Below, piece after piece: positions 8,874 through 24,578 of a stretch of DNA of 24,578 nucleotides. The translations under genes and the position numbers were made by a program. Positions within the stretch are counted from its first letter, which is position 1, and each line of letters opens with the position of its first letter. The notes under the pieces were generated by a model that worked only from the letters and a program-made list of their open reading frames with translations, did no database searches and had not been told where the DNA came from. This DNA is from a virus: IMG/VR virus record IMGVR_UViG_3300032523_000948, positions 1-24,578 of that record; one strand, 5' to 3'.

Positions 8874-11342
8874 ATGCCCGATTTACAACAAAGAAAATAT
8901 TATAAACTTTTTACTGGCACTAACCAATCTGAAGGACATGATAAAATTCATTTCGGTTATGAGGCTGACACTACTGAAATAATACTTAAAAAAGATCAAA
9001 CTACATATTTTCATATGCCCTTCTTTGCCGATACCCAAAACCTGTCAGCATCCTCTTTAATAGCTGATGGGGGAACATCTGGCCCTATACCTGCTTTATC
9101 AGATAGAATTCTTAAAAAACTAGGCAATTATGGCAATACAACACCATGGGGTAACCCGTCCGAAAGATCAGACGGGCAATGGCTATGTTCGTGGTTATAT
9201 GCTTTATCTTCTGAACCCCCCGTCTGGCTTGATAGGTATTATAACCCAGGTCGGTTAGCATATATGGAAGCTTTGGAAGGTAGAGCCAATTTTACTGATT
9301 ACATAAAAGCAGACCCTTTATACTACGATGTAAATTCTACAATGACATTTGAAGCAGGGGTGCTTTATCAATACTTTCACCACGGAGAACAAACCGCCAT
9401 TAAAAATATAACAACATTTTCTGGCCCAAGTGCTGACCGTCTCCGCTTAGATATAGAAGATTGGTCTTGCATGTGTTCTGATAACATAGAGCCAATAGAT
9501 AGGTCAATATATAATAATACAGTTAAAATAGAAAATTTTAAAAATGAATGGGTAGTTAGTTTATACGATCCAGGTTATCAAGATAGAAATTCTCTTTCTT
9601 TTAATAACAACAATTTTATAAATTGTTACGTTAACTATGCTGATGCTTACACCATAACTAATGAATTTACTACTTCTTTTTGGATAAATCACCCCAATTG
9701 GAGCCAAGCAACCTCCACCCAACTACTCGGTAATTTACGTAACGGAGGTTACGGTGTATTTTATAATAACTTACATGATAACCCATACTATGCCATTGCA
9801 GAAACTAACTACGGGCATTTATTCTACTTCAATCAAGAAGGGGAACTGTACCTAGAAAAAAATAATCAATTAATATTAGGAGATACCGCTAAGTTTATTT
9901 TTATTAATATGAATTCTAATGCCGAGATAATTGGTATAGAACAAGAAAAAGCTAGAGGGGTAAAATATAATCACCTTGGGGATGTTTTAACCTACACCCG
10001 ACAACCCAATGGTGACTTATTACAACTAGAAGGGATACCACAATATGCTGTTTTAAGCGGTAATGACGATTCTATATTCGTTACAAGCTTAAGCACCTAT
10101 ATTTTTGATAAAGATTTATTGTTAAAAAATATTTTACCCAAGCCTTACGGTCACAAGGAAGAGTTTGCTTTTAATATTAATGGAGAGCTTGTACGGGAGC
10201 TTTCCTGTTTAGATTTAAAGTTTGATGCCTATAATCAAAAATGGATAATAACTGAACAAGGTATAGCACAGTGCCAGGGAGTAGCTCTTACCGGTCTACC
10301 AAGTAATCAGACCAATAGTAATACAAATATAGCCATTGATCCTGAAAATAATGTCTGGGTATTAGCAGATAGTAATACTATATATAAATTAAACCCTTTT
10401 ACCAAAGACATAATTGACACTTATGAAGTAGGGGTACTTACAGATGCTTTAGATACTGTAAAAAATATAAGCTTCATTAAAGCATATAATAGGGCCACTA
10501 ATGACTACACTTGGTATGCTATAATATATCACAGTTTTGAAAAAACATTGTATATAGTAACACTAGATGGCAATACAATTAAAAATATATTTTTACCCCC
10601 TAAACTTAACATATTAGACCCGGTAACAGCTCAACAAGACCCTGATCTTGTTGAATTTAAAAGCCTAGGAGATTTTACAGGATACGAAAGACGCAGAATT
10701 TTTAACAGATTATTGTACAACAACAACCCACAAATACAGTTTAAAGTTGCTACAACATTACCAAATCGAAGTTTACCGTTTATAGTAGAAACATTATCAA
10801 TACCAGTTCAATATTTTGTAAATAATATTTGGCATTTAGTTACAGTATCTTTAAAAAATAATAATATTAAAATTTATATTGATAACTATTTGAGAAATGA
10901 ATTACAACTTGCTAATAATGCTAATTTTAATTATGAATTTAAGAATAATCTTTTTATAGGAAGTCCTGCAGGTAAGAGTGAAAATTTAAATAAGGAAATT
11001 AATACAACCTCCGTTATTTGGAATGGGTATATTGATAGTGTTCGTGTTTATGACTATGCAATAAAACCAGAATTTATTCAGTATTTTGTAAGAGAAAAAA
11101 CAATAGCAGATGACATACAATGGAATATTCAGACAGCTGCTTTACAGTATGTAGAAGTTGTTGATAGGTTTTTCAAGCATAGAATGCCAGGTTCTAAAAG
11201 TGCTTTTTTTAATATACGCTTAACTGGTGCTAATATTACCGATCCTGATGTAAAATTAAGAGTAGAAAATGATATTAAATTGGCAGTATTACGTTTAAAG
11301 CCGGCGTATGCAGAGCTTTTAAAGGTAGAATGGTTCGATTAA
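8874..11342 (+). CDS. Tail-appendage protein with LamG-like lectin domain and beta-propeller
   Basis: This 822-residue protein appears to have a concanavalin A-like (LamG) sandwich in two halves. The first half, residues ~239-320, has SLSFNNNNF followed by FTTSFWINHPNW. The second, ~619-725, has NIWHLVTVSL, KIYIDNYLRNE, NLFIGSPAG and GYIDSVRVYDYAIKPEFI, the usual LamG ending. Between them, ~320-618, is a beta-propeller-like region with an NHL/SMP-30-type blade (IAIDPENNVWVLADSNTIYKL). The N-terminal ~235 residues, with Trp and Tyr clusters, may anchor it to the particle. The C-terminus (DPDVKLRVENDIKLAVLRLKP) is alpha-helical and ends in LLKVEWFD. It likely binds host glycans. It starts one base after the previous gene and lacks its own promoter box. 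Confidence 0.75.
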   Translation: MPDLQQRKYYKLFTGTNQSEGHDKIHFGYEADTTEIILKKDQTTYFHMPFFADTQNLSASSLIADGGTSGPIPALSDRILKKLGNYGNTTPWGNPSERSDGQWLCSWLYALSSEPPVWLDRYYNPGRLAYMEALEGRANFTDYIKADPLYYDVNSTMTFEAGVLYQYFHHGEQTAIKNITTFSGPSADRLRLDIEDWSCMCSDNIEPIDRSIYNNTVKIENFKNEWVVSLYDPGYQDRNSLSFNNNNFINCYVNYADAYTITNEFTTSFWINHPNWSQATSTQLLGNLRNGGYGVFYNNLHDNPYYAIAETNYGHLFYFNQEGELYLEKNNQLILGDTAKFIFINMNSNAEIIGIEQEKARGVKYNHLGDVLTYTRQPNGDLLQLEGIPQYAVLSGNDDSIFVTSLSTYIFDKDLLLKNILPKPYGHKEEFAFNINGELVRELSCLDLKFDAYNQKWIITEQGIAQCQGVALTGLPSNQTNSNTNIAIDPENNVWVLADSNTIYKLNPFTKDIIDTYEVGVLTDALDTVKNISFIKAYNRATNDYTWYAIIYHSFEKTLYIVTLDGNTIKNIFLPPKLNILDPVTAQQDPDLVEFKSLGDFTGYERRRIFNRLLYNNNPQIQFKVATTLPNRSLPFIVETLSIPVQYFVNNIWHLVTVSLKNNNIKIYIDNYLRNELQLANNANFNYEFKNNLFIGSPAGKSENLNKEINTTSVIWNGYIDSVRVYDYAIKPEFIQYFVREKTIADDIQWNIQTAALQYVEVVDRFFKHRMPGSKSAFFNIRLTGANITDPDVKLRVENDIKLAVLRLKPAYAELLKVEWFD

Positions 11343-11346
11343 ACAG

Positions 11347-11353
11347 TTAAATA
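11347..11353 (+). promoter_or_regulatory. Late-promoter-like TTAAATA box
   Basis: TTAAATA lies in the 20-nt gap and ends 9 nt before the ATG at 11363. No Shine-Dalgarno lies between the box and the start. Confidence 0.55.
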
Positions 11354-11362
11354 TTTACAGTA

Positions 11363-14300
11363 ATGTCTGAGCCTACTAACATCAATCTTGTAAGAAGTAA
11401 TATAAGCACTAACTTCTTAACAGCATCAGCATTTCAGGATGTTAATACCCCTATAACTTCAGGTTACTTTTTACGTTGGAGTGCCCCTCTTAATAGTACA
11501 ACAGGTTATACACTATCAGTAGCATATTTTCAAGGCGGAACAGTTAATGCTTCTACATGTAGCATTTTCATTCCCTATACTACCACATCTCTTTTTTCTG
11601 CAATATCACTTACTGAATATTTTCCTATAAACGTAAGCGATGCTCTTACAATAAACATAACAAGCCTTAGAAATGGTCTAACTATTGACCAAAACACTAA
11701 TACTCTTACTCAATCTGCTACGGCGGTCCGGGTACAATTTTTCCCTAATTTTGATAACACAATTAACTATGCCCCTACTAATTTTGAAATAAGTGCAATA
11801 GGTTATAATAATGAACCATTTATAAGAACATTAACAGCTGTTGTTATACAGAATACAGGAGCCTTTGGTAAGGTAAAAGCACAAGGACCTACAGCTTTTA
11901 AATGGCTATTTCCAAGCAATATACAAGCTAAAACAAATAATGGAACACCCTACACTTCTGATAGTGTTGAAGCTATATCTTCGATTGGTACAATGGTGTT
12001 TTATATTACTGCAGATACAACAAATACATATGCATTATGCACAACAAAGTTAAGTGCTCAATCCTTTGATAGCTATGACCCTAGTCCAACAACTATTCAT
12101 ACAAATTTTTACACTGTTTCATACGATACATTCCCTAAAGTAGATCTTAATCTTTTTATAAATTATGAAAATACAAACCATTCAAATTTCTTTTATCGTT
12201 TAACTTCTTTAACTTCTCTTACAGCTTCCCCCGGTATAGATTTTGTAAGATTGTCTAGTGTTAACATCCCTGTATCCCTTACCCCTCTTACAACAGCTTG
12301 GCTCACTCTTAATAATACTACCACTAAATTATCTGAGATAACCACGCTTAACAGATCTGTTCCAGGGGTATCGAGTGTGCAAGGATACCTATCTGCTATA
12401 GCAAGTGGATGGAATAATACCCCTCACATTTTTGAGCGTAGTTTAAGCGCTATATTTGTTAACTATTTTCTTGATGGAGACTTTATAGGGGCCCCAAAAG
12501 CTTACTTTAAAACACCCATAACAAAACCTCTTAAGTATGAGCTTTTAACAGACATAACTGATACCCCTGGTATGTTATTTTACGGAGAAGGACATACCGA
12601 GACTATACGTCTTACTGCTCAAAACTTACACCCACTTAATGAAAAGTGTATTTGGAGAGTTAATAATTCTCTTACTCAATATCCAGTTTCAAGTGTATTT
12701 GTTTCTCAAATAACTGCTTCAGTTTCAATATCTTCTCAACCCCAGCAGCCGGCAACAGTAAGAATACCAGTTTCTTTGCAGTTAACTAATAATCAATTTC
12801 CGAGTGCCAGTCCCTTACATTTTTTTAATGATGTAGACGGCTTAAAAACCCCTTACCCGTATTTTATTTCTACTGTAGATGTTAACGGCAATGAACTAAA
12901 TCCAAATAATAAAAATAAGCAATCTATAACGATTTTACCTTACGATCAGATTATCTTTGAATTTAAACCTGGTATCGAATCAAGTATATACTTACCAGCT
13001 AATGGATCTATCTCTTCGTATCAAGCATCCCTTCGTTACACTGCATCTCCAGAAGCTTTATCAGGTTGTTATGGCAAATACGGACTTATTTGGAACTGGG
13101 CAGCTTATACTGGTTGTTTAGCAAATCCGGGAACTTTTATCGGTCTACCATCTTCTTGGGCCACCGTTCAATGTTCTGGTACGTTTCCAAAGCAATGGAC
13201 TCAAAATGATCTTTTAAGCACTGATATTTTTAATAACAGTCCAGCTACCTGTTCAGCATCAAACATAATGTGGACAATTTCTTCTGAACCATCTTTCTTT
13301 GTCAACAGTTTTTATGATCCTAAAAGCCTCCCATCTAATTTTGAAACATTTAATATATTTTGTTATGATTTAAGTTTATCAAAAAATGGCGGTGAAATGC
13401 TATCAGCTACTAATAAATGCGGTCTCAATTACACAGGTAGTATATATGAAAATACAAACATAACTTTAAAAGTAAATCAAAATGTAACTTGTCGCATAAG
13501 TGCTATCGAACTTCCCTCCGGTTACAATAATGACTGGCAACCTAAAACAACAACGTTTAACGATAAGTTTTTAATAACCTCAATAGCTCAACCGCTCCTT
13601 CGTATCTATACACCAAACAGATATATATTAACAAATACCAACGTAACTTTTGAAAACTTAATAACTAATACAAGTCTTATAACTTCTTTAGTTGTTAATT
13701 TTGACGACAATAAAGTTTTAAATCTAACTGGGGAAGATATTAAAGCACCATTTAGTGTAACATACGATGTTATCGGTTTAAAAACTATTCAAATAACTGC
13801 TTATACAAACTATAGTTCTAACCCAGTGATAGCAACCTTCCCTAACATTGTAGAAGTATTAGATAGATATGAGCAGGTCTCGCCCTCAGAATATAGAACC
13901 CCGAACACACCTATTGAATTACCTTGGCCTAATAAACCAGGGGTAGGTTCTAATGATTGGGTGGTTGCAGATAATATTAACCACTGGTTTGAAAAGCTTT
14001 TTGATAATCTAAACTATTTAGAGGCTAGAAGTAGAGTATACCCTAGCAGTTACTCTGAATATTTTGGTTACTTAGGAGCTGAACCTACAAGTTTTGGTGG
14101 GTTAACTGCTTGTGAGACCTGGACATGGGAAGATCTTGATTGTTTTAACACTTCATTACCATACGACGTTACTTGGAGAGATGTACTTTCTGCTGAAACC
14201 CCAGATGATAGCGGCCGCTTTTTTAATGAAGGATGTAGTACATGGCAAGCTTATAACTGCACTAGTAAGCAGATTGATCCTGTTTGTTTTGGCTTATATG

Positions 14301-17685: not shown

Positions 17686-18474
17686 ATGAAGCAAAACCCT
17701 CTTTCCGAAATTTATGAATCAAAGGTATTAACCTCTGAAGCAGTTCCTTCCAACAAAGTTAAAGGAGACAAAGAACTCGACGACATGATGAATGCTAAAA
17801 AAGCTCGTCCAGTTTCAGGTCAAGGGCCAGAAGCTAGTAAAAAAGATTTACATGCACCAAAAGAGATGCACGGTACTGAAGTACACGACCCTAAAGTTTT
17901 AAAAGATTCTATGGAAAAACCAACAAAATCATTTGAAGGCTCATTTGAAAAGCTTTTCAAAGCAACAATTAATGAGCAGTTCCCCGGTGAAGAAGAAATG
18001 GGTATGGAGATGGAAGTCGAAGTGCCTACCTCAGACGACGAAATGATGGATGAGCTCGAAGGTGAAAAAGACGAAGTAACAGATCTCGTTTCTGATCTTA
18101 AGTCAGTAATGGACCATCTTCAGACAATCCTTGATAAAATTTCAGAAGAAACTGGCGGAGAAGAAGAAGAATCAGAAGAAGAATCAGAATTCGGAGACGA
18201 AGAAGCTAACGACGTTGAAGATCTCGAAATGGAAGAAGAGCCAGTTAAAGAAGCAACAGAACTAAAACCTCTCGGTGATAAGAGCAAGGTGCTTCAGAAC
18301 AAGAGTAATAAAGTTGGTGGACATCCAAAAGTTCACGGCGGTAAGGCACACGGCGGAGATGTTGATTCAGATCCTAAGTTAAAGCCAGCCAAGGGACATG
18401 ATAAATCATATCAACACCCAAAAGGTAAGCCTGAAGTTAAGTCGACTGTTAAAAGAGGCGATTTCTTTAAATAA
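17686..18474 (+). CDS. Bipolar acidic/basic virion or scaffold-like protein (262 aa)
   Basis: I do not recognise a named family. Residues 1-90 are polar. A strongly acidic core at ~100-205 includes a heptad-like helix (VTDLVSDLKSVMDHLQTILDKI) and long Glu/Asp runs. The last ~55 residues are Lys/Gly/His-rich (VGGHPKVHGGKAHGG). This charge layout is seen in prohead core/scaffold proteins and in DNA-mimicking or DNA-condensing virion proteins. INE at 95-97, followed by Q, is a possible gp21-type cleavage site. It has the window's best late promoter and a strong terminator, which suggests independent, high-level late expression. A head-core or internal protein role is inferred. Confidence 0.65.
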   Translation: MKQNPLSEIYESKVLTSEAVPSNKVKGDKELDDMMNAKKARPVSGQGPEASKKDLHAPKEMHGTEVHDPKVLKDSMEKPTKSFEGSFEKLFKATINEQFPGEEEMGMEMEVEVPTSDDEMMDELEGEKDEVTDLVSDLKSVMDHLQTILDKISEETGGEEEESEEESEFGDEEANDVEDLEMEEEPVKEATELKPLGDKSKVLQNKSNKVGGHPKVHGGKAHGGDVDSDPKLKPAKGHDKSYQHPKGKPEVKSTVKRGDFFK

Positions 18475-20719: not shown

Positions 20720-20992
20720 ATGAACTTTAACGATACAGTATTAGAAGTTTTAGAAGAAGCCAAAGGTGGTAGATGTACTAAGGTCACTAAGCAAATGTCT
20801 TCAAGCCGGGCTTCAAAAAAATATATGAGATGTGCTAGGGTAGATGGTAAGCTTAAAAGAGTACATTACGGTGATCCAAATCTTAGAATTAAAAAGTCTA
20901 ATCCTAAAAAGCGTAAATCTTTTAGAGCCCGTCACAAATGCTCAACAGCTAAACCAGGAACTGCAAAATACTTTTCTTGCAAGAATTGGTAA
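20720..20992 (+). CDS. Small basic Cys-containing protein with internal-protein-like leader (90 aa)
   Basis: This 90-residue, strongly Lys/Arg-rich protein is of a type seen in T4-like marine phage genomes, but I know of no function for it. The body has YMRCARVDGKLKRVHYGDP, then RIKKSNPKKRKSFRARHKCSTAKPGTAKYFSCKNW. It has four Cys in the spaced contexts RC, RC, KC and SC, which could bind zinc. The N-terminal MNFNDTVLEVLEE followed by A ends in L-E-E|A, which fits the (I/L)-x-E gp21 cleavage rule and resembles the leader of T4 internal proteins. A DNA-binding head-internal protein is plausible (inference). It abuts the gp4 gene with no gap. Confidence 0.7.
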   Translation: MNFNDTVLEVLEEAKGGRCTKVTKQMSSSRASKKYMRCARVDGKLKRVHYGDPNLRIKKSNPKKRKSFRARHKCSTAKPGTAKYFSCKNW

Positions 20993-21442
20993 ATGAATCG
21001 CAAAAGAACATCTAAGTTCAAACAAGGTATATTCAACCCTGTTAATAAAGACAAGTATAAAGGATCGACGCCAATACTTTATAGGTCATCATATGAGATC
21101 AAGTTTATGCGCTGGTGTGACCACAACCCAGCGATACTGACCTGGGGATCAGAATCAGTTATAGTACCTTATCAAAATCCTCTTACTCAAAGAGTGTCTC
21201 GTTACTTTGTTGATTTTAATATAACTTTAAGAAATAAAAACGGCGAAACTAAAAAATATCTTATAGAAATAAAACCCTCTGTTCAGACCGTACCACCTAT
21301 ACCCACTAAAAATACAAGATCTCTTCTTAGACGCCAAGCTGAGTATGTTAAGAATAGAGCTAAGTGGGAGGCGGCAACTCAGTTCGCGACTAAAAAAGGT
21401 TCAGAGTTCGTTGTACTTACTGAGAAGCATTTAGGCCTTTGA
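20993..21442 (+). CDS. 4: Head completion protein, T4 gp4-like nuclease fold
   Basis: This 149-residue protein closely resembles T4 gp4 (also gp50/gp4), the head completion protein. Signature features are the N-terminal GIFNPVNKDKYKG, then YRSSYEIKFMRWCDHNP, then RYFVDFNITLRN and LIEIKP. E35, D74 and E92-x-K94 form an E...D...ExK set like that of TnsA/restriction-endonuclease-fold nucleases, so a role in trimming or processing packaged DNA ends is plausible; in T4 it is known genetically for head completion. Its ATG directly follows the previous stop (TAAATG). Its 3' end overlaps the convergent minus-strand gene by 12 bp. Confidence 0.9.
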   Translation: MNRKRTSKFKQGIFNPVNKDKYKGSTPILYRSSYEIKFMRWCDHNPAILTWGSESVIVPYQNPLTQRVSRYFVDFNITLRNKNGETKKYLIEIKPSVQTVPPIPTKNTRSLLRRQAEYVKNRAKWEAATQFATKKGSEFVVLTEKHLGL

Positions 21443-22297
21443 AGAATACTTTCTAGTCTTTTCAGAACCAGGTACAACCTCTTCAGTTATCTCTTCTGTT
21501 ATAATAGTTTTTGTCCGAGCCGGGATAGGTTGATCAACTAACAGTTGTTTAGTTTCTTTTAATACCGATCCACCTCGAGCAATGTTATAAGCTAATACCA
21601 AAGATACAGCTAATGGATCAAATACTAAAACAATAATCAAGATAAAAAGCTTTACAACTGTATCAAGAGGTAAGCCAACTGATTCAGCCACAAACTTAAA
21701 GGTACCAATATCATGCACTTCATTACCTTCAGAGTTTAAAACAATAAGTTCATTATCTTTCTCAAATGCTGTAGTTTGAAGTTCTTGTACCCGGGCTGTT
21801 AAGCCTTTGATCTCTTCAGCTGATCTTGCCATATCCTCATAAACTGGTTTAGCTGCTAGACGAGACATTTGAGGCAAACGAGTTTCTTGGGACTTACGAG
21901 CATCATTAAGAGTGTTAATACGAGAGTTAATCTGTTCAACTTCTTTTGTAATGTTATCTTTTTGCTGTACAATAAGAGAGGCCTTATTATCAATGAGTTC
22001 TGTCTTACCGGCATTAACCTGGTAGCCTGATGATAGATAACCATAGATACCTAATGAGGTAATACCCATGAGAACTAATACTGCCGTTATCATGTATATC
22101 TTTAAAAACCAAACTACCTTGTTCCAGTAACGATATAGGAATGAGGTTGCTACTAATTTACCTAACTCTAAGGACCCGGCCATAATAATGACTGACCAAA
22201 AGTGTCCGGAGAATAAAGTTGCAATACCAAGGACTGAAAAATAAGCTGCACTTCCTGCTACCAGTAAGGCTGTGAATGCTAATAGTGCTGTAAACAT
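21431..22297 (-). CDS. Membrane protein with central coiled coil (288 aa), sole minus-strand gene
   Basis: The protein has three hydrophobic helices at ~3-30, 33-55 and 63-88, then a soluble region at ~95-195 with a heptad-like coiled coil (KEVEQINSRINTLNDA, AEEIKGLTARVQELQ). A fourth hydrophobic helix lies at ~213-240 (VVKLFILIIVLVFDPLAVSLV), followed by a polar, Glu/Thr/Lys-rich tail. This is an inner-membrane topology with a large loop held between membrane segments. No named family was recognised. Lysis control, superinfection exclusion or membrane anchoring of assembly are options, with none proven. Start ATG is at 22297-22295, 8 nt from a TTAAATA box. It is convergent with, and overlaps, the gp4 gene and is divergent from the 101-residue gene. 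Confidence 0.75.
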   Translation of the reverse strand: MFTALLAFTALLVAGSAAYFSVLGIATLFSGHFWSVIIMAGSLELGKLVATSFLYRYWNKVVWFLKIYMITAVLVLMGITSLGIYGYLSSGYQVNAGKTELIDNKASLIVQQKDNITKEVEQINSRINTLNDARKSQETRLPQMSRLAAKPVYEDMARSAEEIKGLTARVQELQTTAFEKDNELIVLNSEGNEVHDIGTFKFVAESVGLPLDTVVKLFILIIVLVFDPLAVSLVLAYNIARGGSVLKETKQLLVDQPIPARTKTIITEEITEEVVPGSEKTRKYSSKA

Positions 22298-22305
22298 ATT
22301 AGCAA

Positions 22306-22312
22306 TATTTAA
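22306..22312 (-). promoter_or_regulatory. Late-promoter-like TTAAATA box, minus strand
   Basis: On the minus strand, TTAAATA ends 8 nt before the ATG of the membrane protein gene. It shares a 38-nt divergent gap with the plus-strand TATAAATA box at 22323-22330. Confidence 0.5.
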
Positions 22313-22322
22313 TCAGAATAAG

Positions 22323-22330
22323 TATAAATA
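22323..22330 (+). promoter_or_regulatory. T4-type late promoter, exact TATAAATA
   Basis: This exact TATAAATA ends only 5 nt before the ATG at 22336. If transcription starts at the usual T4 distance from the box, the mRNA would begin at or next to the start codon. Confidence 0.7.
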
Positions 22331-22335
22331 TTACT

Positions 22336-22641
22336 ATGACAAGGGATCAAAAATTAATTGCTGAAGCTTACAACAATGTCACCATAAACGAACAAGCACA
22401 GAGTGCTGTTCCTTACACTGGGCCCTATGAATATGTTTTATGGCTTGCAGACTTGGATGGTTTTCTTGAAAGACTCAGACAAGCAACAGACACAGGCATG
22501 GAATTTAAAACAGCTCACTGTGCCCTTAAACAAGATCTGCAAGAAATGGGCATGCCAGTAACAGATACTGATGTTTACGTGTTTCCAAAAGCAACTGACT
22601 TCACACAAGTTGCCCTTGTGCCTACTCAATATATAGGGTAG
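22336..22641 (+). CDS. Putative head-internal protein with capsid-targeting-like leader (101 aa)
   Basis: The family is not recognised. The N-terminal MTRDQKLIAE followed by A closely mirrors the 10-residue leader of T4 internal proteins (MKTYQEFIAE followed by A), which targets them to the prohead and is removed by gp21. A second possible site is I17-N18-E19. The remaining ~80 residues form a compact alpha/beta domain (YEYVLWLADLDGFLERLRQA, CALKQDLQEMGMPVTDTDVYVF). It stands directly upstream of the gp21-like protease gene, where T4 has core protein gene 68. A core or packaged internal protein is inferred. Confidence 0.65.
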   Translation: MTRDQKLIAEAYNNVTINEQAQSAVPYTGPYEYVLWLADLDGFLERLRQATDTGMEFKTAHCALKQDLQEMGMPVTDTDVYVFPKATDFTQVALVPTQYIG

Positions 22642-22659
22642 AAAATAAGACCTGTTAGA

Positions 22660-22666
22660 TTAAATA
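22660..22666 (+). promoter_or_regulatory. Late-promoter-like TTAAATA box
   Basis: TTAAATA lies in the 35-nt gap before the protease gene and ends 10 nt before its ATG at 22677. Confidence 0.55.
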
Positions 22667-22676
22667 ATAGAAACCT

Positions 22677-23351
22677 ATGGGACTTAAATTTTTAGTCGAA
22701 GATATTCATGACGGGCTCGATTTCATGATCGAAGAAAAAAACCGTCAAGGGGAACAAAAGCTCTACATCACCGGTCCATTCTTAATGGCCGAGCAAAAGA
22801 ATCAAAACGGTCGTATCTATAAACTAGATGAGATGGTTACTGAAGTTAATCGTTACACTGATGAGATGGTTAAGTCTCGTCGTGCTATTGGTGAAATGAA
22901 TCACCCACAGTCGACAGAAGTTAACCCTGTTAATGCCTGTCACTTGGTTACGGAGTTAAAACAAAATGGTAATTACTTTATGGGCAAGTCCCAGGTGCTC
23001 AATACACCAATGGGTCAGCTTCTCAAGTCTCTAATTACAGACGGAATTAAAATGGGTATCTCTTCTCGTGCTCTTGGTAACATCAATGATTCTGGAGACA
23101 CAAAACACGTTTCAAATTTTCACTTAATCTGTCTTGATGTTGTGCATCAACCTTCAGTACAGAACGCCATGCTTGAGTCAGTAATGGAGTCAAGAGAGTA
23201 TATGATTCGTCCTGATGGTTCAATTATTGAGTGCTCAGCAAAAGCAAAAGCACAACTCGCTGAAAAACTTTCCAACATGCCAAGACATGGCACTGACACA
23301 TTCTTAAGAGAGGCCTTGATCGGCTTTATTAATAAAATTAAACTTGGATAA
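22677..23351 (+). CDS. 21: Prohead core protein and protease, T4 gp21-like
   Basis: This 224-residue protein resembles T4 gp21 (212 aa), the serine protease of the herpesvirus-assemblin-like fold that matures the prohead by cutting core, vertex and internal proteins after (I/L)-x-E. Key features are ITGPFLMAEQKNQNGRIY, the catalytic His in GEMNHP (H76), a second His at 89 in the NPVNACHLV strand, and the Ser motif GISSRALG (S129/S130). The C-terminal ~60 residues are probably a propeptide or core-binding part. It lies between two genes whose products carry putative gp21-cut leaders. The next gene starts one base after its stop. Confidence 0.93.
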   Translation: MGLKFLVEDIHDGLDFMIEEKNRQGEQKLYITGPFLMAEQKNQNGRIYKLDEMVTEVNRYTDEMVKSRRAIGEMNHPQSTEVNPVNACHLVTELKQNGNYFMGKSQVLNTPMGQLLKSLITDGIKMGISSRALGNINDSGDTKHVSNFHLICLDVVHQPSVQNAMLESVMESREYMIRPDGSIIECSAKAKAQLAEKLSNMPRHGTDTFLREALIGFINKIKLG

Positions 23352-23352
23352 T

Positions 23353-24390
23353 ATGAGAAATCGGGACGAAAAACTTTTAGCAGAAGCTTATACATTAATC
23401 AATTGCAATAATACTTTGCAACAAATGTGGAAAAACGATGAACAAGCTTCAGTTAATGAAGGTTTAGGAGATACTGTTAAGACCAAACTTGTTCAGCCTT
23501 TAGTAACTTGGTTGATTAATAAAGTTAAGGAAACATCTCCTGAGCTTTATAATAAAGTTGCTGCAGCAATTCAAAACAAGGACCAACAAGCATTAACGGC
23601 TATATTTAATGATCCAAAAGTACAACAAGAGCAAAATGCTATTTCACAACAAGTAACGACAGAAAGTCTTACCCCTATTTCAGAAGCAGATCAAAAGCCA
23701 AGCTTAATAAATTCAGTATTGTCTTGGGTTAAAGCTCACCCAAAACTATCTGCAGTTGGTGCGCTTGCTGTATTAGGAGTTCTTGGTTTAGCAGTATACG
23801 GCTCTGGTGGTGTTGTACCTTTATTAATGGCTATTGGCTCAAAGAGTCTAACAGGTGCAGTAACAGGTGGTGTAGGTGGAGCGGCAATAGCAGGTGGAAA
23901 ATCAGCAATTTCTCAAATAGCAAATCAAGGTAAAGTCGATATTAAACAAACAGCTAAAGATGCTCTTAAAGGTGCTGGTTATGGTGCTGCTGCAGGAGCT
24001 GTTGGTGGTGCATTAGGGGCAGTGGGTCAAGCTGCTGCAGCAGGAGCTGGTGCCGTTAGTAAAGACATTTCATCCTATATACAGAAATTGCTACAAAGTA
24101 GACAACCTGGCGATAAACTTTTAGCTCAAGCAGCTCAAGCAAATCCTGATAACCCGTACTTCCGTAAATTTGTAGAATTTCGGGCTAGTGGTGAATTACC
24201 TGACGACGTTATTAATAGTACTACAAGCAAAAATATCTTACAAAAAATAGCTAACGGTCAAGCTTCTAAAGAAGAAGTAGAACAGCTTAAATCATATTTT
24301 ATGGATTTTGTAGGTTTTGAAAAACAAAATCGCGCAAATATAGCATCCGATGCATCATTTAAAAAATTAATCGGAGATATAACTCAATAG
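23353..24390 (+). CDS. Putative packaged internal protein with Gly/Ala-rich hydrophobic core (345 aa)
   Basis: The start is the ATG at 23353, one base after the gp21 stop; a TTG at 23344 would overlap gp21. The N-terminal MRNRDEKLLAE followed by A resembles the T4 capsid-targeting leader. V34-N35-E36|G and I109-S110-E111|A are further gp21-like sites, the last a full match to the (I/L)-x-E|A rule. Residues ~129-190 and ~204-238 are hydrophobic and Gly/Ala-rich (ALAVLGVLGLAVYG, GAAAGAVGGALGAVG), like glycine-zipper membrane or pore segments. The C-terminal ~105 residues are polar helices. It lies between gp21 and a core gene. An internal protein that could insert into a host membrane is an inference. 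Confidence 0.65.
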   Translation: MRNRDEKLLAEAYTLINCNNTLQQMWKNDEQASVNEGLGDTVKTKLVQPLVTWLINKVKETSPELYNKVAAAIQNKDQQALTAIFNDPKVQQEQNAISQQVTTESLTPISEADQKPSLINSVLSWVKAHPKLSAVGALAVLGVLGLAVYGSGGVVPLLMAIGSKSLTGAVTGGVGGAAIAGGKSAISQIANQGKVDIKQTAKDALKGAGYGAAAGAVGGALGAVGQAAAAGAGAVSKDISSYIQKLLQSRQPGDKLLAQAAQANPDNPYFRKFVEFRASGELPDDVINSTTSKNILQKIANGQASKEEVEQLKSYFMDFVGFEKQNRANIASDASFKKLIGDITQ

Positions 24391-24441: not shown

Positions 24442-24578
24442 ATGACAACAGAAGAACAAAATACAATTACTAACTTTATTGGCAAGCTAGCCAACAAGGA
24501 TTACTCAGAAGCACAACAAGCTTTAGAGGTTGCCGTAGAAACAAAATTAAAAAATAAGATTCGTAATTACGTAAATCA
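24442..24578 (+). CDS. Probable prohead core/scaffold protein, 3' end cut by window edge
   Basis: Only the first 45 residues are visible (MTTEEQNTITNFIGKLANKD, then YSEAQQALEVAVETKLKNKI). This is a charged, fully helical N-terminus. The pattern of a short helix, ALxxAVxxKLKNKI and then more basic residues resembles the start of small prohead core proteins of T4-like phages (gp67 type). The place, downstream of gp21 within the head-assembly cluster, fits. The 51-nt gap before it holds no clear TAAATA box and no Shine-Dalgarno; it is very A/T-rich (AAAAAAATATATAATTACTA). Confidence 0.55.
   Translation, partial: MTTEEQNTITNFIGKLANKDYSEAQQALEVAVETKLKNKIRNYVN

Follow-up and report, generated by a model that had tools for sequence, protein, structure and literature searches.

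Putative capsid-targeting leaders of the T4 internal-protein kind on three proteins near a gp21-like prohead protease gene

The packaging of varied proteins by T4-like phages, the capsid-targeting concept and the L/I-x-E motif are already published (PMC9026906, PMC9958956), and an analogous N-terminal signal has been described for phage P1 (PMC9024508). Here we analyse a viral stretch of 24,578 nucleotides, the whole IMG/VR record IMGVR_UViG_3300032523_000948 (hereafter the window), in which three proteins encoded around a gp21-like prohead protease gene, at 20720, 22336 and 23353, carry short N-termini of comparable appearance. Of the three internal proteins that T4 packages, IPI alone is known to have a clear role in counter-defence. 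The start MKTYQEFIAE, which the first-pass annotation of the window attributed to the T4 internal proteins at large, is found in the T4 record for ipII and ipIII (MKTYQEFIAEA) but not for ipI, which reads MKTFKEFTSTTTPVSTITEA.

The small basic protein (20720..20992, plus strand, 90 aa) has a PHROG 7595-like body behind a predicted leader, MNFNDTVLEVLEE (20720..20758, plus strand), whose cleavage after residue 13 (LEE↓A, the arrow marking the cut) would leave 77 aa of pI 11.0. The candidate cargo protein at 22336..22641 (plus strand, 101 aa) starts with the predicted leader MTRDQKLIAE (22336..22365, plus strand; cut after residue 10, IAE↓A), which would leave 91 aa of pI 4.2. The candidate at 23353..24390 (plus strand, 345 aa), in the slot directly after gp21, starts with MRNRDEKLLAE (23353..23385, plus strand; cut after residue 11, LAE↓A), and its predicted mature body of 334 aa has a pI of 8.9 and a hydrophobic, Gly/Ala-rich middle. 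All three open reading frames and starts are exactly as first annotated, and so is the gp21-like gene among them (22677..23351, plus strand, 224 aa), a Peptidase_S77 prohead protease (E 3.7e-28; 98.8 bits for a curated cut-off of 27; PHROG 207, E 1.9e-56). The leaders, of 13, 10 and 11 residues, end in LEE, IAE and LAE, respectively. They thus share the expected (L/I)-x-E ending but, judged by their sequences, do not form one T4-like kind: two classes can be distinguished, MxFxxxVxExLEE for 20720 and (K/R)D(Q/E)xLL(A/E)EAY for 22336 and 23353, the fuller consensus of the latter (class 2) being (K/R)D(Q/E)xLL(A/E)EAYxxV. An MKT(Y/F)xEF-like start is present on relatives of 20720 (MKTFKEFYLEE) and on none of the three leaders of the window.

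As with T4 IPI, IPII and IPIII, the leaders are 10-19 residues long with (L/I)-x-E before the predicted cut, the phage has a gp21-family protease, unrelated presumptive mature bodies follow one leader, and gene content is not conserved. The differences are that leader 2 reads KDQxLLEEAY instead of the MKTYQEF of T4, that the candidate cargo is basic no more often than it is neutral or acidic, and that some relatives have more tagged genes per phage, tandem arrays and a slot beside gp21. T4 Alt, an injected ADP-ribosyltransferase (PMC9026906), is likewise a head-carried, leader-cleaved protein, but none of the genes identified in the window is a homologue of Alt. P1, which has a prohead protease, injects anti-restriction Dar proteins, and DarB bears an N-terminal capsid-targeting signal; the Dar proteins are reported to have no common N-terminal consensus (PMC9024508). 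In SPN3US and phiKZ a prohead protease also removes N-terminal propeptides from head proteins, but these are mostly longer than 100 residues and are cut at AxE or SxE (PMC5694885). A literature search, not exhaustive, returned nothing on the leader-2 consensus, the leader strings or the tagged arrays; leader class 2 and its candidate cargo would thus be the new elements within T4-style capsid targeting.

We consider it very probable that all three N-termini are propeptides which target their proteins to the capsid, as those of the T4 internal proteins do. The leader would bind the scaffold core during assembly and bring the protein into the prohead, where the gp21-like protease would cut after (L/I)-x-E and free the mature protein. 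The latter would remain with the DNA in the virion and, by analogy, probably enter the host at infection.

Conservation of the leaders at the peptide level

The motif [LI]xE[AGS], with its glutamate at residues 7-20, is present in 4 of the 19 genes of the window as compared with 5 of 528 stretches of 14 residues taken from the protein interiors (binomial P 2.8e-5); the fourth gene, besides the three considered above, lies at 17686 (MKQNPLSEIYESKVLTSEA). We screened 2.9 million viral contigs with a DNA pattern that encodes leader 2 in its DQ form and recovered 74 stretches (65 distinct; 61 with a start codon just upstream, 59 of these being real leaders). The same pattern with the glutamate changed to lysine recovered 7, and the sole likely gene start among them keeps LLE one residue earlier. 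Similarly, the T4-type pattern MKT(Y/F)x(E/Q)F(h)xEA gave at least 120 matches and its E-to-K version a single one. When E and A were masked in detection, the glutamate came back at that column in 26 of 31 further leaders, and the five exceptions have LLE one residue earlier (four leaders) or QLE (the fifth). A tblastn search with the bare 20-aa leader returned nothing, as expected from so short a query. In all, related leaders, with the consensus seen at 22336, were collected on 109 proteins of environmental phages, in 63 unrelated body clusters.

The 20720 family and its leaderless homologues

Among homologues of the 20720 protein, the body is conserved across many phages and the N-terminus is variable, the leaders including MNFNNTVLEILEE, MEFDKLVAEILLE, MKTFKEFYLEE, MQTFKQFLLE and MFKQFDSKVTELLKEFVETFPVEVQE. 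Two of the variants, MKTFKEFYLEE and MKTFKQFYLEE, occur on one 20720-type body and match the MKTFKEF of T4 ipI. In 75 of 77 extended homologues, [LIVMF]xE is located no more than seven residues ahead of the first cysteine of the body. At the position that would follow the cut (P1'), 37 of 75 homologues have K, 30 have A and the other 8 have G, S or Q. Conservation of the E↓A position among homologues, the absence of which was named beforehand as one finding that would refute the original proposal, therefore holds for the glutamate but not always for the alanine.

In six reference phages with the 20720 body, the presence of a leader matches that of an S77 protease. The two S77-bearing cultured phages, HTVC008M and C48C1, have leaders ending LPLEE↓AEFQG and ELELTE↓AEYQG, respectively, whereas the four with no S77 match, Kolga EXVC016S, CRP-3, HTVC106P and Flavobacterium elemo phage elemoA, start with M-A at the point of the predicted cut (MAKYQG, MAVDKSK, MAIDKSK and MAESVKS, respectively). 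The same pairing is seen in a second body subtype, with LEE↓ATDKDKMPANKPRR in locus L033 versus M↓AVDKSKMKCNKPRR in CRP-3. An in-frame stop immediately precedes the leaderless start of CRP-3 and one codon separates the two in HTVC106P, so that no leader is hidden upstream. This comparison of six phages suggests that the mature 20720-type protein begins at the E↓A bond.

The AlphaFold2 (AF2) model of 20720 (mean predicted local distance difference test score, pLDDT, 82.6) places a helix weakly at residues 3-15 ahead of a folded body; the body is predicted to be a small fold that contains cysteines, the helix of the leader being loosely placed. Compared with the Protein Data Bank, the model gave no significant match. 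Foldseek related the fold to proteins of a marseillevirus (Tunisvirus) and an iridovirus and to phage proteins named XkdF and ChaB, and the modelled body would thus represent a viral domain of wide spread.

These data bear on the best-surviving alternative, according to which one or more of the three proteins is a gp21-processed component of the prohead core or its assembly, like gp67, gp68 and gp22, and not cargo delivered to the host. We regard it as unlikely, giving it about one chance in five. In its favour, most relatives keep the 20720 gene in synteny with head genes, the conservation of 20720 resembles that of a structural protein, and other phages have the 20720 fold fused to XkdF. However, the 20720 body is also present in phages without an S77 protease, and 22336 and 23353 are missing from most relatives and replaced there by unrelated bodies, unlike core proteins. 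For 20720 a core role stays viable.

Leader genes beside and away from gp21

The slot between gp21 and the small core gene is empty in 33 loci and holds a leader gene in 9, the window included, and the 9 leader genes carry 7 bodies without mutual BLAST similarity. Elsewhere, leader genes form tandem arrays of up to 13 on a contig of 66.5 kb. The 22336 protein has one close homologue, at the same place (L024/L132), and its body, once the leader is removed, is related to the product of a tagged array gene in L274 (E 1e-9 for the pair). No homologue of the 23353 body was found, and the cultured phages searched contain neither this body nor that of 22336. The leader would thus behave as a portable tag, shared by many unrelated bodies, with the position after gp21 accepting different tagged genes.

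Two otherwise unrelated slot cargos, in L002 and L010, end in PVAQQPVTR and PVAQQQPTR, perhaps a recombination edge. In the L010 cargo (10685-11590), the stretch FVLDGHHRWSQ resembles, on visual inspection, ParB-like nuclease domains. L255 (G003:C1:195589-199008, minus strand), in a genome that belongs to the window's own group, is a tandem array whose genes begin with MSFKxFxxES or a similar sequence, which is a T4-like leader. The gp21 of HTVC008M (L420, 72211-72867) itself starts MKLITEELTDVQLIAEADENG, in which QLIAE↓A resembles leader 2 and may be a self-cleavage site.

A number of observations weigh against capsid targeting. Leader 2 could often be cut at either of two places, LLE↓E or LEE↓A, and its position 4 is not aromatic, unlike the T4 leader residue reported to matter for targeting (PMC9026906). 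One more slot body, in the three loci L032-L034, is leaderless. The array contigs G004-G008 are without gp21, although they are fragments that share 17-52 genes with the gp21-bearing G003, and large genomes have their leader genes a long way from gp21, which means that proximity to the protease gene is not general. Lastly, we found no virion proteomics for any of these phages. On the other side, all six contigs of at least 184 kb with leader genes carry the protease, and in T4 too the ip genes (65-74 kb) are distant from gp21 (103 kb).

Leader genes are scattered through large genomes and occur in arrays at a distance from the head genes, which could be explained if the leader directed its protein to another destination, such as the tail, a compartment made by the phage or some host complex, with (L/I)-x-E-A forming part of an uncut binding helix. 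The predicted helicity of the leader in the AF2 model and an average body that is not basic would agree with such a role. We nevertheless hold it to be quite improbable: the motif is identical to the cut motif of T4 gp21, leaderless homologues from protease-less phages start just past the position of the glutamate, the slot adjoining gp21 is occupied by leader genes, and the exceptions that move the glutamate retain L-x-E.

The T4 late promoter core, TAAATA, lies in the 30 nt that precede 64% of leader genes, as against 27% for other genes of at least 100 aa. In the window, TATAAATA (22323..22330, plus strand), a T4-type late promoter core, ends five bases before the 22336 ATG, a layout common to many leader genes, and a transcript initiated there would be nearly leaderless. 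Such sequences just 5' of many leader ATGs, together with slot genes that appear swapped at a fixed 5' edge, would fit a signal shared at the nucleic-acid level (a late promoter and a translation start) or simple gene-start recombination, with no peptide function, an explanation we can almost dismiss, since the residues hold while the codons of class 2 leaders vary (all six Leu codons occur at the first Leu) and the 20720 body is preceded by different leaders, nearly all ending in [LIV]xE. The alignments, leaderless homologues, E-to-K scans and swapped slot bodies could each have told against the first proposal but did not, and capsid-targeting leaders cleaved by the protease remain the best reading.

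Possible cargo and neighbouring genes

We lean, by a modest degree, towards a wider proposal: that (K/R)DQxLL(E/A)EAY constitutes a second capsid-loading code in environmental T4-like phages and marks a large set of exchangeable injected effectors, which would make up a virion-borne kit for counter-defence or host takeover. If so, the tag would list such effectors straight from sequence. Provided that the tag works, the first 15 residues would predict virion cargo among many uncharacterised phage proteins, this cargo could be assayed directly against restriction and other defences, and new tags would become available for loading reporter proteins into phage heads.

The cargo had been described at first as one small basic, one compact and one hydrophobic protein; the basic character of 20720 and the hydrophobic middle of 23353 were borne out, but basicity does not extend to the cargo in general, as the acidic 22336 body illustrates. 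A basic-cargo rule was dropped after testing, the mean net charge of leader-bearing bodies being near zero. Searches of 65 leader-2 proteins against Pfam, PHROGs and PADLOC gave almost no matches. By comparison, the T4-type leader marks 53 body clusters. Some of these belong to PHROGs that bear the name internal virion protein or internal head protein, which serves as a positive control, and others include peptidoglycan hydrolases together with one methyltransferase and one S-adenosylmethionine lyase. The lyase (L402, 3704-4408, minus strand; PF23780, E 7e-15) carries a T4-type leader. Phage enzymes of this type, such as that of T3, counter restriction, and a virion-carried copy would act immediately on entry. 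A match of 23353 to Effector-associated domain 1 (E 5.5e-4) was under the cut-off of that family and was set aside, as was the AF2 model of 22336 (mean pLDDT 50).

A nucleotide search with part of the window against cultured phages gave no match. Directly after the 20720 gene lies a gp4-like head-completion gene (20993..21442, plus strand; PHROG 218, head closure, E 9.6e-48), the product of which has a TnsA-like N domain (E 6.6e-17). On the minus strand at 21431-22297, inside the head-gene block, is a gene for a membrane and coiled-coil protein, kept in many relatives including G001 and G003; a family search with it gave nothing above the cut-off. The gene order in relatives is gp4, the minus-strand membrane gene, gp21, a 49-aa gene, gp22 and gp23. 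The window contains the start of the 49-aa gene (MTTEEQNTITNFIGKLANKDYSEAQ, 24442..24578, plus strand), which occupies the gp67/gp68 position before gp22 in relatives and is truncated at the contig end. As the 3' end of the record falls inside this gene, gp22 and gp23 were examined in relatives instead, where gp23 has a likely processing site near residue 54 (WCFE↓A or S, or CLNE↓G) that would fit a Glu-specific protease.

A fourth head protein may be cleaved in the same way, with a weaker case: the acidic 262-aa product of the gene at 17686..18474 (plus strand) starts MKQNPLSEIYESKVLTSE↓A. Its start pattern is MK(K/Q)NPLxEIYxSxVLxxE, the homologues listed retain a Glu at residue 18, and the protein is possibly a further protease substrate or a core protein.

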